Shown: one piece after another, positions 22,344 through 28,898 of the stretch
Layout of the letters: each line of letters opens with the position of its first letter
Position numbering within the stretch: the first letter of the stretch is position 1
Source of the DNA: Alphaproteobacteria bacterium
GTDB taxonomy: Bacteria > Pseudomonadota > Alphaproteobacteria > Micropepsales > Micropepsaceae
Length of the DNA: 64,000 bases
Reading direction: 5' to 3'
Assembly: GCA_947473475.1 (NCBI GenBank)
Contig: CANJBZ010000003.1
Location: 1-64,000, forward strand
Notes under the pieces: model-generated
Told to the model about the DNA's origin: nothing
Databases searched by the model: none
The model's input: the letters and a program-made list of their open reading frames with translations, nothing else
Made by a program: the position numbers and the translations under genes

Positions 22344-23399
22344 ATGCAGAGCGAAATGGAACGCGGTGTTCCGAATTCGGAACAGGCGCTACACGGAACA
22401 CGGCGAAGAACGCCGGATTGGGATGCGGTCCGCGTCTCGCTGGAAGTCGTCCGTAAAGGGAGCTTCCGGGCTGCTGCCGAACATCTACGCATGTCGGTGA
22501 ACGCCGTGCGGCGCCGAGTCGACGAGGTTGAGAACAGCCTCGGCATGATCCTTTTAACGCGCCATGTGGATGGGGTCCGAGTGACGGCGGAAGGCGAACA
22601 AGTGTTTGCGGCCGCAGTGCAAATGGAAGCTGCATCCTTCGGTTTGATGCAGGCCAGCAACAGCGCGGACAGCGACCTGTCGGGCGAAGTCCGGCTGGCC
22701 GTTACGGAAGGTTTGGGCACGGCGTGGATCGCGCCACGGCTTGTCGAGTTTCAGCGCGCCAATCCGAATCTGATCATCGATCTCAACTGCGCCATGCGTT
22801 CCGCTGACGTGTTGCGCATGGAAGCCGATGTTGCGATTCAGATCACACGGCCGACCAATCCCGATCTGCGTTTGGTAAAACTGGGGCGGTTGCACTTCCT
22901 GCCGTTCGCGGCGCCGAGCTATCTCGAGACCTTCGGCATGCCGAAAACGATTCGCGATTTGGCGAATCACCGGATTCTCGTGCAGGCCGACGACAATGCG
23001 CAGTGGAAGGAACTTTACGACCGTCTTTTCCCCGGCATCTCGCCGACGCGTATCGTTGCCCTGCGGACCAATGTCAGCAGCGCGCATTATTGGTCGATCG
23101 CCAAAGGCGCCGGCATCGGGCTGCTGCCGACCTATGCGCAGTGGGTGGGCGCCGAAATCGTGCCGCTCGACCTCGGCATTCACGAAACGATCGATATCTG
23201 GCTGACCTACCATCCCGACGCCAAGCGGATTGCGCGTGTGTCCAGGCTGATCGATTGGGCGATTCAGGCCTTTTCGCCGCAGAAATATCCCTGGTTCCGG
23301 GATGAGTTCATTCATTCGAACGATCTCAAAAATCACTATCGCGGTGAGCCGTTAGGTAACGTGTTCAACGATTTTCCGGGTAAGACCGCGGTGGCTTGA
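22344..23399 (+). CDS. LysR-family transcriptional regulator, divergent from the GNAT operon
   Basis: N-terminal HTH SLEVVRKGSFRAAAEHLRMSVNAVRRRVDEVENSLGMILLTRH; periplasmic-binding-like effector domain. Confidence 0.9.
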   Translation: MQSEMERGVPNSEQALHGTRRRTPDWDAVRVSLEVVRKGSFRAAAEHLRMSVNAVRRRVDEVENSLGMILLTRHVDGVRVTAEGEQVFAAAVQMEAASFGLMQASNSADSDLSGEVRLAVTEGLGTAWIAPRLVEFQRANPNLIIDLNCAMRSADVLRMEADVAIQITRPTNPDLRLVKLGRLHFLPFAAPSYLETFGMPKTIRDLANHRILVQADDNAQWKELYDRLFPGISPTRIVALRTNVSSAHYWSIAKGAGIGLLPTYAQWVGAEIVPLDLGIHETIDIWLTYHPDAKRIARVSRLIDWAIQAFSPQKYPWFRDEFIHSNDLKNHYRGEPLGNVFNDFPGKTAVA

Positions 23400-23786: not shown

Positions 23787-25721
23787 ATGCCGAAAATGGC
23801 CGACGGTCCGGATATCAAACGCCGTAAATTCCTGAAGGGCGCCGGTCTTGCGGGCGCCGCCGCAATGGCCGCGCCGCTGAACGCAGTTGCACAACCGCGC
23901 ACGCCGCCGGCGGGCAATGCGGTCCCCATGCCGAACCGCGCCGCGGAAACAGGGGTGCCGCCTGAAATGGAGGTGCTGACCGAAGGCAAAAGCGGCAGCG
24001 ACTTCATGGTCGACTGCATCAAAGCGCTCGGCTTCGATTATGTGGCGTCCAACCCCGCCTCAAGCTTCCGGGGCCTGCACGAGTCGCTGATCAATTACGG
24101 CAACAACAGTCCGGAATTCCTCACCTGCAGCCACGAAGAAATCTCCGTGGCGATGGGGCATGGCTATTACAAGATCGAAGGCAAGCCGTTGTGCGTGTTC
24201 GCGCATGGCACCGTCGGCCTGCATCACGCCACCATGGCGCTCTACAATTCCTGGTGCGACCGCGTGCCGGTCTATGTGGTGATCGGCAACATCATGGACG
24301 TGCAGCTTCGCCGTCCGGGTATCGAATGGAATCACAGCGCGCAAGACCCCGCCGCCGTGGCGCGCGATTTTCTGAAATGGGACGACAATCCCGCATCGTT
24401 GCAGCACTTCGCGGAATCTTCGGTCCGCGCCTACAAAATCGCCATGACGCCGCCGACGCTGCCGGTGCTGCTGGTTGCCGATGGCGGGCTGCAGGAAGAC
24501 CCGATTCCCGCGGGCATGGAATTGCGTATACCCAAGCTGCCGCAGGTTTCGGCCCCGCAAGGCGAATCCGGCGCGGTTGCGGAAACCGCGCGTCTGCTCG
24601 CGACAGCAGAAAATCCGGTGCTGGTGGCCGACCGTTATGCGCGCACGGAAAAAGGCGCCAAGCTGCTGGTCGAGCTGGCCGAGGCGTTGCAATGCCCGGT
24701 CATCGATACCAGCGGGCGTTTGAACCTACCCACCCGGCATCCGCTGAACCAAAGCTCCCGCGCGCGGGGGCACCTGTCGCAGGCCGATGTGGTGCTTGGC
24801 CTGGAGATGAACGACTATTGGGGTGTCATCAATTCCTATCGCGACCAGCTTCACCGCACGTCGAAGCCAATCACTAAGCCGGGCGCGCGGCTCATCAGCC
24901 TGGGTTGCGGCGATCTCTATACGAAATCGAACTATCAGGATTTCCAGCGTTTCGCCGATGTCGATGTGGCGATCACCGGCGATGGCGAAGCGACACTGCC
25001 GCTGTTGATTGAAGCGGTGAGGAAACACGTCGACCAGGGCCGCAAAGCCAATTTCGAAGCGCGCGGCAAAAAACTGGCCGACGCGCACAAGGCCGATTTC
25101 GACAAGGCCCATGTCGATGCGACCTATGGCTGGGACGCCAGTCCCATCTCGACGGGCCGACTGTGCGCCGAGGTGTATGAGCAAATCCGCAACGAAGATT
25201 GGTCGATGGCCTCGCCGACGGCTTCGCTATCCTATTGGCCGCAGCGGCTGTGGACTATGGACAAGCCCTATCACTTCATCGGCGATGGTGGCGGCATGGG
25301 CATTGGATATTGCGCGTCCGCGTCGGTTGGCGCGGCGCTCGCCAATCGTAAGCATGGCCGCTTTACGGTGGCCATCCAGAACGACGGCGATCTGCTGATG
25401 ACCATCGGCGTGCTGTGGACGGCGGCGCATCACAAGATTCCGCTGATGTTCGTGATGCACAACAACCGCGGCTATCACCAGGAACTCATGCATGTCCAGC
25501 GCATGGCGAACCGGCATATGCGCGGGCTTGATCGCGCGCATATCGGCACCACGCTGCGCGATCCGTTCATCGACTACGCGAAAATCGCGCAGGGCATGGG
25601 CATCGCCGCCATTGGGCCAATCTCCGATCCGAAGGACCTGGGCCCGGCACTGACGCGGGCGAAAGCCATCGTCAAAGCCGGTGAGCCCGTTCTGGTCGAT
25701 GTCGTGACACAGGGGCGCTGA
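23787..25721 (+). CDS. Tat-exported thiamine-diphosphate-dependent enzyme (acetolactate synthase/benzoylformate decarboxylase superfamily)
   Basis: KRRKFLKGAGLAGAAAMAAPLNAVAQ Tat signal; SHEEISVAMGHGYYKIEGKPLCVFAHGTVGLHHATMALYNSW; ThDP motif NDGDLLMTIGVLWTAAHHKIPLMFVMHNNRGYHQE. Confidence 0.9.
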   Translation: MPKMADGPDIKRRKFLKGAGLAGAAAMAAPLNAVAQPRTPPAGNAVPMPNRAAETGVPPEMEVLTEGKSGSDFMVDCIKALGFDYVASNPASSFRGLHESLINYGNNSPEFLTCSHEEISVAMGHGYYKIEGKPLCVFAHGTVGLHHATMALYNSWCDRVPVYVVIGNIMDVQLRRPGIEWNHSAQDPAAVARDFLKWDDNPASLQHFAESSVRAYKIAMTPPTLPVLLVADGGLQEDPIPAGMELRIPKLPQVSAPQGESGAVAETARLLATAENPVLVADRYARTEKGAKLLVELAEALQCPVIDTSGRLNLPTRHPLNQSSRARGHLSQADVVLGLEMNDYWGVINSYRDQLHRTSKPITKPGARLISLGCGDLYTKSNYQDFQRFADVDVAITGDGEATLPLLIEAVRKHVDQGRKANFEARGKKLADAHKADFDKAHVDATYGWDASPISTGRLCAEVYEQIRNEDWSMASPTASLSYWPQRLWTMDKPYHFIGDGGGMGIGYCASASVGAALANRKHGRFTVAIQNDGDLLMTIGVLWTAAHHKIPLMFVMHNNRGYHQELMHVQRMANRHMRGLDRAHIGTTLRDPFIDYAKIAQGMGIAAIGPISDPKDLGPALTRAKAIVKAGEPVLVDVVTQGR

Positions 25722-25722
25722 A

Positions 25723-26082
25723 ATGACGATGATTTTGCGTTTGTCTGCTGTTGTCTTGGCGCTGTCTGTTTCTTCGGCACTCGCAGCCGAACCGCCGAAG
25801 GGTGACGCCGCCAAAGGGCGCGAGTCCTATTTGACCAAGGGCTGTTCCTATTGCCACGGCACGGTGGGCCAAGGCGGCGGCGGACGCACCGGCGGTTTGC
25901 GCCTTGCCAATATGGACATCGGCTACGAGGCGTTTTTGAATCAGTTGCGCCATCCGGTGAACGAAATGCCGCCCTATGTGCAGAGCGCAATGCCCGATGC
26001 CGAAGTGGCAAACATCCACGCCTACATCAGCAGCCTGCCGCCCCCACCCGACGTGAAATCCATCCCGATTTTGAACCGGTAA
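25723..26082 (+). CDS. Secreted monoheme c-type cytochrome
   Basis: Signal peptide; CSYCHGTVGQGGGG; ATG begins 1 nt after the upstream TGA. Confidence 0.88.
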   Translation: MTMILRLSAVVLALSVSSALAAEPPKGDAAKGRESYLTKGCSYCHGTVGQGGGGRTGGLRLANMDIGYEAFLNQLRHPVNEMPPYVQSAMPDAEVANIHAYISSLPPPPDVKSIPILNR

Positions 26083-26335: not shown

Positions 26336-27040
26336 TCAGCTGACGACTTTGTAGAGGCGCTGGTCGTAGGGCGTGCCGAGCCATTGCAGAATGACTTGGC
26401 GATAGGTCTGCGTGTGGGGCGCGCGGTTGTGCGCGTCGAACGCGGCCATGTTGGCCCATTCTTCGTAGACGCGGAAATGGTTGGCGTGCAGCGGCACTTC
26501 ATCCAGCACATCGAAGCGCACCATGCCGCTGTCTTTGCGGCTGGCCTCGGTCAGCGGCGCGAATGCGTTGATAAGGTTCTGCGTATTGCCGCCCGCCACA
26601 TCGCAATGGCTGATCACGACGACGCTGTTCGGGCTCGGCGCTTTGGGCGGCGCCGCGGAATGTGCCTGGTGAACCCGCAGATCGGTGGGACCGAGCGCGA
26701 TGGGTTTCACTTTGTCGTTCATGGCCTTCATGGCGGCGGCCGAGGCGTGCGTGGATGCCGTGCCGCGGTTCTGCCAGACTTCGCTGAGCACGAAATTATA
26801 GGGCCGGCCGTCTTCCTGCATGATGTCGACGAACATCGCACCGGGTTCACGCCGGGCGGCATCGCGGTATTCTTTCAGCGCGGCCAGTGCGGCGCCTGCG
26901 CCACTCGGAACGACCTCGACATAGGTCATCACATAGGTCGGCCCGTCGATGACGGGTATCGGCTGATTTTGCGCAACCGCGGGGCCAACCATGGCCGCGA
27001 GCAAAGCCGCACACGCAAAGCGCCGGGACAGCGTCTTCAT
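26336..27040 (-). CDS. Secreted protein with two ABM-like (dimeric alpha-beta barrel monooxygenase) repeats
   Basis: Signal peptide; TYVMTYVEVVPSGAGAALAALKEYRDAARREPGAMFVDIMQED and FRVYEEWANMAAFDAHNRAPHTQTY. Confidence 0.7.
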   Translation of the reverse strand: MKTLSRRFACAALLAAMVGPAVAQNQPIPVIDGPTYVMTYVEVVPSGAGAALAALKEYRDAARREPGAMFVDIMQEDGRPYNFVLSEVWQNRGTASTHASAAAMKAMNDKVKPIALGPTDLRVHQAHSAAPPKAPSPNSVVVISHCDVAGGNTQNLINAFAPLTEASRKDSGMVRFDVLDEVPLHANHFRVYEEWANMAAFDAHNRAPHTQTYRQVILQWLGTPYDQRLYKVVS

Positions 27041-27109
27041 AACAGGCACCTCCTAAAGCAAACGGCCGCCTCGTGTCCGGGGCGGCCGTTCCGATGAAAC
27101 CTCAGTCGC

Positions 27110-27802
27110 TCAATTGACCGGCAGATATTTGCGCTGGTCGTAAGGCGTGCCCAGCATGGGCGCCAGATCGTTGCGGAACGCTTGCGTGTGTGCCGAAAGA
27201 TTGTGCGCATCGAACGCGCGTTCGCTGGCCCAAATCTCGAACAGCCGGAAATGATTTCCCGTGCCCGGCGCCTGACGCAGGATTTGAAATTTCTGCATGC
27301 CGGGATCCTTGGCCGAGCCTTCCGACAGCGGCTTCATGATGTCCAGCAATTGCGGCAGCACGTTCGGCGTCACGTCCAGATGGCTCATGATGAGAATGCT
27401 GTTCGCCGTCGCAGCGCCGCCGCCCGGCGCGATGTAATGGGCGATATGGGTGCGCGCATCCGGCGGTCCGTATTGGATCGGCAGCATTCTCTGAAACAGC
27501 TGGGCGCGGGCGATGGCTTTGGCGTGCGTTTCATACGCGCCCATGTCGCGCCACACTTCGTTGGTGACGAAGCGCGCGGGCGCGCCGGCTTCCTGATACA
27601 CGTCCGCTACCATCATGCCCGGCTCTTTGCGCGCGGCGTCGCGATACTCTTTCAGCATCGCTACGGTGTCCGCGGTGGCGCCCGGTGTGACCTCGTAGAA
27701 GGTGGTGACGTAAATGGCGCCCTGAGCCTCAACGGCATTGGCGGGTTGCGCAAACCCAAGCACCGTGAGGGCGCAGAACAGCAAGCTGAAAAACGCTTTC
27801 AT
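27110..27802 (-). CDS. Secreted ABM-like protein, paralogue of the neighbour at 26336-27040
   Basis: IYVTTFYEVTPGATADTVAMLKEYRDAARKEPGMMVADVYQE; FRLFEIWASERAFDAHNLSAHTQAFR. Confidence 0.7.
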   Translation of the reverse strand: MKAFFSLLFCALTVLGFAQPANAVEAQGAIYVTTFYEVTPGATADTVAMLKEYRDAARKEPGMMVADVYQEAGAPARFVTNEVWRDMGAYETHAKAIARAQLFQRMLPIQYGPPDARTHIAHYIAPGGGAATANSILIMSHLDVTPNVLPQLLDIMKPLSEGSAKDPGMQKFQILRQAPGTGNHFRLFEIWASERAFDAHNLSAHTQAFRNDLAPMLGTPYDQRKYLPVN

Positions 27803-27818
27803 ATACTCTCTCCAAAAA

Positions 27819-28325
27819 TCAGTTCTGAGCGACGGGGCGTTGCGCCAATTGAGCAGCGGCATCCGCACCGGCCTGTGCGCCCGCGGTATCGCCTTCCTGC
27901 CCGCCACGCGTGCCGGATACACCGACAGCGCCAACCACCTCACTGCCGACCATGATCGGAACGCCGCCGCCCAACGGAATCACCTTGGGCATCTGGCGCT
28001 CGCTCGCGCGGTCCTTGCCCGGCATGGAAACATCGCGCCATTCGATCGACTTCATCTTGAACGTGTTGGCGGTAAACGCCTTGCGCTCCGCCAAGCCGAC
28101 ATTGTGGGGCGCGGCGTTATTGCCTTTCAGCAGCAGCACGACATCGCCATTGGTGTCCACCACGGCCGTCGACGGATCGGAGCCGTCATTCCTGGCGTAG
28201 GCCTGCACGGCCTTTACCGCCGCCATCGCCATTTCGGACGTCAGCTTGGTTTGCGCGTAAGCGGAAGGCGCCGTCAGAAGGGAAGCCGCAGCGGCCGCAA
28301 TGAGAAGATGAGAGAAACGAGACAT
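27819..28325 (-). CDS. Secreted HbpS/GlcG-family protein
   Basis: Signal peptide; STAVVDTNGDVVLLLKGNNAAPHNVGLAERKAFTANTF; GGGVPIMVGSEVVGAVGVSGTRGGQEG. Confidence 0.8.
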   Translation of the reverse strand: MSRFSHLLIAAAAASLLTAPSAYAQTKLTSEMAMAAVKAVQAYARNDGSDPSTAVVDTNGDVVLLLKGNNAAPHNVGLAERKAFTANTFKMKSIEWRDVSMPGKDRASERQMPKVIPLGGGVPIMVGSEVVGAVGVSGTRGGQEGDTAGAQAGADAAAQLAQRPVAQN

Positions 28326-28343
28326 CGAATCCTCCGGATTTTT

Positions 28344-28898
28344 TTAGAGAAGTTGATCGGCAATGGCGTCGGCGCCGGCTTGCGCACACGCTTCATCCGC
28401 CATCGGTCCGCCTTTGGCCCCCGTGACGCCCACGCCGCCAATGGCATCGGCATAGCGCGTGATGGGCACGCCGCCCGGTTCCGTGATCGTATTTTCCAGA
28501 TATTGCTGGCCGTTCAGATCGATCCGCACGCCCTTGTCGTCTTTGGCATCCATCGCCGTGCGTTCCATCCACGTCGAGACATTTTGGCGGAAGGTGCGCG
28601 CGGTATAGGCCTTGCGCCGCGCATTGTCGGCCATCTCCGGCGACGCGCCATCGCCGCGCACCAGGAACCGCGTCATGCCGTTACGATCCACGACCGCGAC
28701 GCTGATGACGGAGTTGTCTTTCTTACAGGCGTCGACAGCACCTTGCGCCACCATCAGCGCCTGCTCGACCGAGATGTCGTTGTTGTTCAGCGATTGCAGC
28801 GTGGAAATCTTCACCATCTGCTGCACAAGGCCGTAGCCTGTGCCCACCGCAAAAGCGCCAAGCGCCACCAGGGCAACGCTCCTCACCAATTTTTCCAT
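28344..28898 (-). CDS. Second secreted or membrane-anchored HbpS/GlcG-family protein
   Basis: ISVAVVDRNGMTRFLVRGDGASPEMADNARRKAYTARTF; GGVPITRYADAIGGVGVTGAKGGPMADEACAQAGADAI. Confidence 0.78.
   Translation of the reverse strand: MEKLVRSVALVALGAFAVGTGYGLVQQMVKISTLQSLNNNDISVEQALMVAQGAVDACKKDNSVISVAVVDRNGMTRFLVRGDGASPEMADNARRKAYTARTFRQNVSTWMERTAMDAKDDKGVRIDLNGQQYLENTITEPGGVPITRYADAIGGVGVTGAKGGPMADEACAQAGADAIADQLL

Follow-up and report, generated by a model that had tools for sequence, protein, structure and literature searches.

Does the ThDP enzyme of the gene pair at 23787-26082 of the window, the whole stretch of 64,000 nucleotides analysed here, work in the periplasm, and does it pass its electrons to the cytochrome c encoded directly behind it? 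ThDP synthesis is cytosolic, and as far as we are aware every known ThDP enzyme of this superfamily works inside a cell or organelle, where the cofactor is produced. The Tat pathway exports folded, cofactor-loaded proteins. We propose that the pair constitutes an operon encoding a new type of periplasmic dehydrogenase, in which a ThDP enzyme would feed a co-encoded cytochrome c, and we give this reading a probability of about 0.6.

Structure of the gene pair

An earlier note on this DNA had described a complete ThDP enzyme gene with a twin-arginine leader, followed 1 nt after its stop by a gene for a signal-peptide cytochrome c (CSYCH), and both genes were recovered:

22344..23399, + strand: LysR-type regulator gene just upstream of the pair (domain scan)
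23787..25721, + strand: ThDP enzyme of the benzoylformate decarboxylase/acetolactate synthase superfamily with a Tat leader (ORF, Pfam, profiles, structure model)
23787..23890 (end approximate), + strand: twin-arginine leader region, R-R-K-F-L at residues 12-16 and then a hydrophobic stretch (motif)
25374..25391, + strand: ThDP/Mg motif N532-D533-G534-D535 in IQNDGDLL, with N560 further on (alignment)
25723..26082, + strand: small monohaem class I cytochrome c with a signal peptide, CSYCH and a Met ligand in MPPY (ORF, Pfam, model)

The enzyme ORF starts with ATG, encodes 644 aa and ends in a TGA stop at 25719-25721, and all three of its Pfam domains (TPP_enzyme N, M and C) score above cut-off. 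Its N-terminus reads MPKMADGPDIKRRKFLKGAGLAGAAAMAAPLNAVAQ, a twin-arginine leader in textbook form, and the letters of the leader are KRRKFLKGAGLAGAAAMA. A single base separates the enzyme stop from the ATG of the cytochrome ORF at 25723, which encodes 119 aa beginning with a short hydrophobic signal peptide and matches both Cytochrome_CBB3 and Cytochrom_C above cut-off. The LysR-type gene is a possible regulator of the module; further upstream in the window are isochorismatase-like hydrolase, TonB receptor and MFS genes. On the minus strand, a convergent run at 26336-28898 carries two duplicated gene types, namely two exported proteins that each have two ABM domains, and a pair of exported HbpS-like proteins.

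Conserved residues and relatives of the enzyme

Across the 82 leader-bearing and 13 cytosolic sequences compared, residues E117, D533, G534 and N560 are invariant; H140 occurs in 81 of the former and all 13 of the latter. The catalytic Glu and the Mg/ThDP ligands of the superfamily are thus present as E117, D533 and N560, with the first Gly of GDG not kept. In an alignment with benzoylformate decarboxylase, E117 corresponds to the catalytic E47, H140 to H70, and S92, which is kept in 77 of the 82 leader-bearing enzymes, to S26. Opposite H281 the sequence varies, and the alignment there is uncertain. Because the catalytic and ThDP/Mg residues are kept and E117, H140 and S92 match those of benzoylformate decarboxylase, we conclude that the enzyme is probably active and decarboxylase-like.

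The earlier note had taken NDG, found here as N532-D533-G534, as the mark of a divergent subfamily. We rejected this, since position 532 shows ordinary variation within the leader-bearing family (N 22, C 16, G 12, S 9, A 6 and D 5 among the 82 sequences), and NDG therefore does not define it.

Apart from the leader and linker, the enzyme was modelled confidently by AlphaFold (pLDDT 85, pTM 0.85). The solved structures nearest in fold to this model were benzoylformate decarboxylases, glyoxylate carboligase, other carboligases and 2-hydroxyacyl-CoA lyases. Benzoylformate decarboxylases were also the nearest solved proteins by sequence profile. The curated model NF005485 (benzoylformate decarboxylase) gave 138.9 bits against a cut-off of 493, which makes the enzyme a relative and not a member. 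Scores for NF006591 (ubiquinone-dependent PoxB; 59.7 bits, cut-off 792) and NF006377 (another pyruvate oxidase; 71.9 bits, cut-off 742) were lower, and the enzyme fell below the cut-off for every ThDP family listed. Benzoylformate decarboxylase of the MdlC type (PDB 1bfd, 4q9d, 6qsi) shares with the window enzyme the three-domain ThDP fold, the catalytic Glu, His70 and Ser26 (77/82), at about 21-23% identity in structural matches. Unlike it, the window enzyme has a Tat leader, a cytochrome c operon, a variable His281 stretch and a variable first Gly of GDG.

The cytochrome gene follows the enzyme gene across phyla

We searched 85,462 species genomes for homologues and used the best 80 of 155 homologous stretches, which come from MAGs of Acidobacteriota, Alpha- and Betaproteobacteria and Actinomycetota and show 49-77% identity. 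Together with paralogues from the window's own genome these gave 86 leader-type loci, two of which end too soon downstream, leaving 84 evaluable. The frequency with which a cytochrome is the next gene, a score the earlier note had called for, was 74 of 84 (88%; 71 same-strand, 3 convergent), as compared with 9 of 390 (2%) when the same test was applied to other genes of at least 200 aa in the same loci. On these counts chance adjacency of enzyme and cytochrome was rejected. Gaps between enzyme and cytochrome in the 71 same-strand pairs had a median of 10 nt, with 51 falling within 0-30 nt and 8 pairs overlapping. Additionally, enzyme and cytochrome distances were correlated (Mantel r 0.51, 0 of 2000 permutations) over 70 pairs, with relatedness not controlled.

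The partner cytochrome is built for electron transfer, since CxxCH and the Met ligand are kept in all 74 partners. A hydrophobic N-terminal stretch was present in 71 of 71 same-strand partners. The window's cytochrome shows the signal peptide, CxxCH, distal Met and helical fold of a class I cytochrome c, and its model is small and helical; the structures it resembles include the p-cresol methylhydroxylase cytochrome subunit, with weak structural E-values. In Caballeronia the partner occurs in a dihaem version (L126:13809-14426), and in Novosphingobium a second cytochrome c gene directly follows the first (L127:13698-14410).

Export of the enzyme, also claimed at the outset, is supported by comparison. 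Leaders were assigned by motif, and an RRxFL leader was found in essentially every homologue with an intact N-terminus. The two arginines and the phenylalanine of this motif fall in alignment columns that at least 95% of rows share, although the remaining N-terminus is variable. The window's genome carries a TatC gene and a CcmE gene. We suggest from this conservation that the enzyme is a Tat substrate.

Ten of the 84 loci carry leader and enzyme without an adjacent cytochrome. In one subclade of four (L010, L013, L017 and L023), an Abhydrolase_10 alpha/beta hydrolase stands in the cytochrome's place behind the leader-bearing enzyme, and a conserved exported protein without a Pfam match is encoded upstream. 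At L153:2984-7292, two consecutive leader-bearing ThDP genes apparently share one cytochrome gene. No natural enzyme-cytochrome fusion was seen in the fetched loci.

The leader-bearing enzymes form one clade, amplified as gene pairs in the window's genus

In a quickly built tree of 96 rows, with some long outgroup branches, the leader-bearing enzymes formed one clade (SH-aLRT 99). Rows lacking leader and cytochrome, two of them paralogues from the window's own genome, were placed outside this clade. Leader and cytochrome thus appear to have been gained together. The cytosolic sister clades (P_C12, which is G000:C12; P_C9, which is G000:C9; and L098-L114) belong to the same enzyme family, at 32-40% identity and with most invariant residues in common, but unlike the window enzyme they have neither leader nor cytochrome gene. 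One cytosolic relative at 39% identity (G000:C12:74016-75833, L093) lies downstream of tripartite tricarboxylate transporter-like genes. Residues that mark the leader-bearing clade off from its cytosolic relatives include E99, Q146, N168, F208, P222, N382, Q384, Y508, H564 and E566. In a deeper leader-bearing set from Acidobacteriota genomes, at 43-44% identity, a more divergent cytochrome is likewise encoded next to the enzyme. The earlier note had held that close homologues lacking both features would speak against its proposal; we looked for them, and the only such enzymes belonged to separate clades and were no more than 40% identical. Membership of an undescribed subfamily is supported by the comparative evidence.

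The window's genome encodes six leader-bearing paralogues, five with a cytochrome, and three of the six lie within 12.3 kb of one contig; the sixth, which lacks a cytochrome, is followed by an M16 peptidase gene. Matches were found in 7 of 7 genomes of the genus, three to ten in each (some being the cytosolic relative), and in 1 of 30 other genomes of the family. Tandem arrays of enzyme and cytochrome occur in other genomes of the genus, with three units in L139 and L140 and four in L138; in one array, cytochromes with MPRY and MPQY fell outside the stricter haem/Met pattern and were assigned by eye. Paralogues within arrays are about 50% identical. Since the genes duplicate as a pair, a joint function is strongly supported, and conserved pairing and co-amplification together argue that enzyme and cytochrome are functionally coupled, as the earlier note had supposed.

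A proposed mechanism and its alternatives

We propose that the enzyme would fold and load ThDP and Mg in the cytosol and be carried out by Tat. In the periplasm it would form the ThDP enamine by attacking a small carbonyl compound, for which a 2-oxo acid, with loss of CO2, is the likeliest candidate and an aldehyde the other. The co-encoded cytochrome c would oxidise this enamine in two one-electron steps and pass the electrons on to terminal oxidases, and hydrolysis of the acyl-ThDP would release a carboxylic acid. Ferricyanide and other one-electron oxidants are able to oxidise the ThDP enamine in related dehydrogenases, and by analogy cytochrome c could take ferricyanide's part.

Whether a flavin stands between ThDP and haem is the point on which the closest alternative differs. 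A periplasmic flavoenzyme binding FAD and ThDP, as pyruvate oxidases do, could hand electrons from flavin to cytochrome one at a time, which would solve the two-to-one electron problem, and FAD-binding relatives (pyruvate oxidase, acetolactate synthase, glyoxylate carboligase) do match the protein and its model. The best-characterised relatives, however, are the flavin-free benzoylformate decarboxylases (139 bits, against 60 for PoxB and 72 for another pyruvate oxidase), and we regard a flavoenzyme as unlikely. Because of these relatives, electrons may instead pass from the ThDP intermediate to the haem without flavin, and the enzyme would then contain no FAD. We hold the most specific form of this proposal tentatively, at slightly worse than even odds: a Tat-exported, flavin-free family of ThDP dehydrogenases whose enamine gives its electrons straight to the haem of a dedicated cytochrome c, with arrays of paralogues that may differ in substrate.

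Somewhat less probable again is a non-oxidative enzyme, a periplasmic ThDP decarboxylase or lyase yielding an aldehyde, with the cytochrome serving a different dehydrogenase that oxidises the product. Benzoylformate decarboxylase is itself non-oxidative, the ten loci without an adjacent cytochrome would fit, and a few loci have genes for PQQ or molybdenum-type dehydrogenases nearby. Against this, our survey of the neighbourhood (883 neighbour genes clustered, 130 scanned) found no conserved dehydrogenase gene beside the pair among the 86 loci, where the most frequent neighbour after the cytochrome occurs at 10, and enzyme and cytochrome duplicate as a bare pair. The remaining idea, that the genes are neighbours by accidental hitch-hiking or local gene habit with no common function, can draw on the many loci from related, and so non-independent, Acidobacteriota MAGs, but is largely refuted by the 88% against 2% background, the spread over several phyla, the tandem co-amplification and the correlated divergence.

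In the same survey the commonest neighbour types were alpha/beta hydrolases, MFS transporters, FAD monooxygenases and amidohydrolases, and the excess of hydrolases, MFS transporters and FAD monooxygenases was only loose. With no neighbour apart from the cytochrome at more than 10 of 86 loci, the wider neighbourhood is too varied to indicate a substrate, and assignment of one from gene context was rejected. Cultured hosts of the pair are Caballeronia zhejiangensis and Novosphingobium sp. KACC 22771, and on a plasmid of the former the pair adjoins an operon for an aromatic-ring dioxygenase that includes a 4-hydroxy-2-oxovalerate aldolase gene. The annotated record examined gives the enzyme gene no name beyond 'thiamine pyrophosphate-binding protein'. 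We treat a role of the module in the catabolism of aromatic-derived acids as a lead and not as a result.

Relation to known systems

The proposed dehydrogenase, with its ThDP enzyme and cytochrome c, has partial counterparts. PoxB and other pyruvate oxidases are alike in outline, in that a ThDP intermediate is oxidised and its electrons reach the respiratory chain. PoxB itself, a flavoenzyme that is cytosolic and associated with the membrane, reduces ubiquinone; unlike it, the window enzyme has a Tat leader and a dedicated c-type cytochrome, and its profile match is the weaker one of 60 bits. In p-cresol methylhydroxylase and the PQQ alcohol dehydrogenases, a cofactor enzyme delivers electrons to its own class I cytochrome, as we propose for the window pair, and one of the closest small single-domain matches to the window cytochrome is that of p-cresol methylhydroxylase. 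The catalytic subunits of those systems are flavin or PQQ proteins, and we know of no periplasmic dehydrogenase with a dedicated cytochrome c of these types that uses ThDP. Neither an exported ThDP enzyme nor a ThDP-to-haem electron path is known to us as described, and a search of 5.39 million open-access papers turned up no description of an exported ThDP enzyme or a ThDP-cytochrome c pair. Within the ThDP decarboxylase superfamily the module appears to be an undescribed variant, new both in its location and in its redox partner.

If the proposal is true, it would add a new type of catalyst to periplasmic respiration, in which oxidation and decarboxylation would proceed without uptake of the substrate and electrons would enter at cytochrome c. 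Chemically, it would have a bearing on whether direct reduction of a protein haem by a ThDP enamine is possible. Numerous uncultured bacteria of soil and freshwater carry the module, as do at least two isolates with sequenced genomes, which makes it testable.
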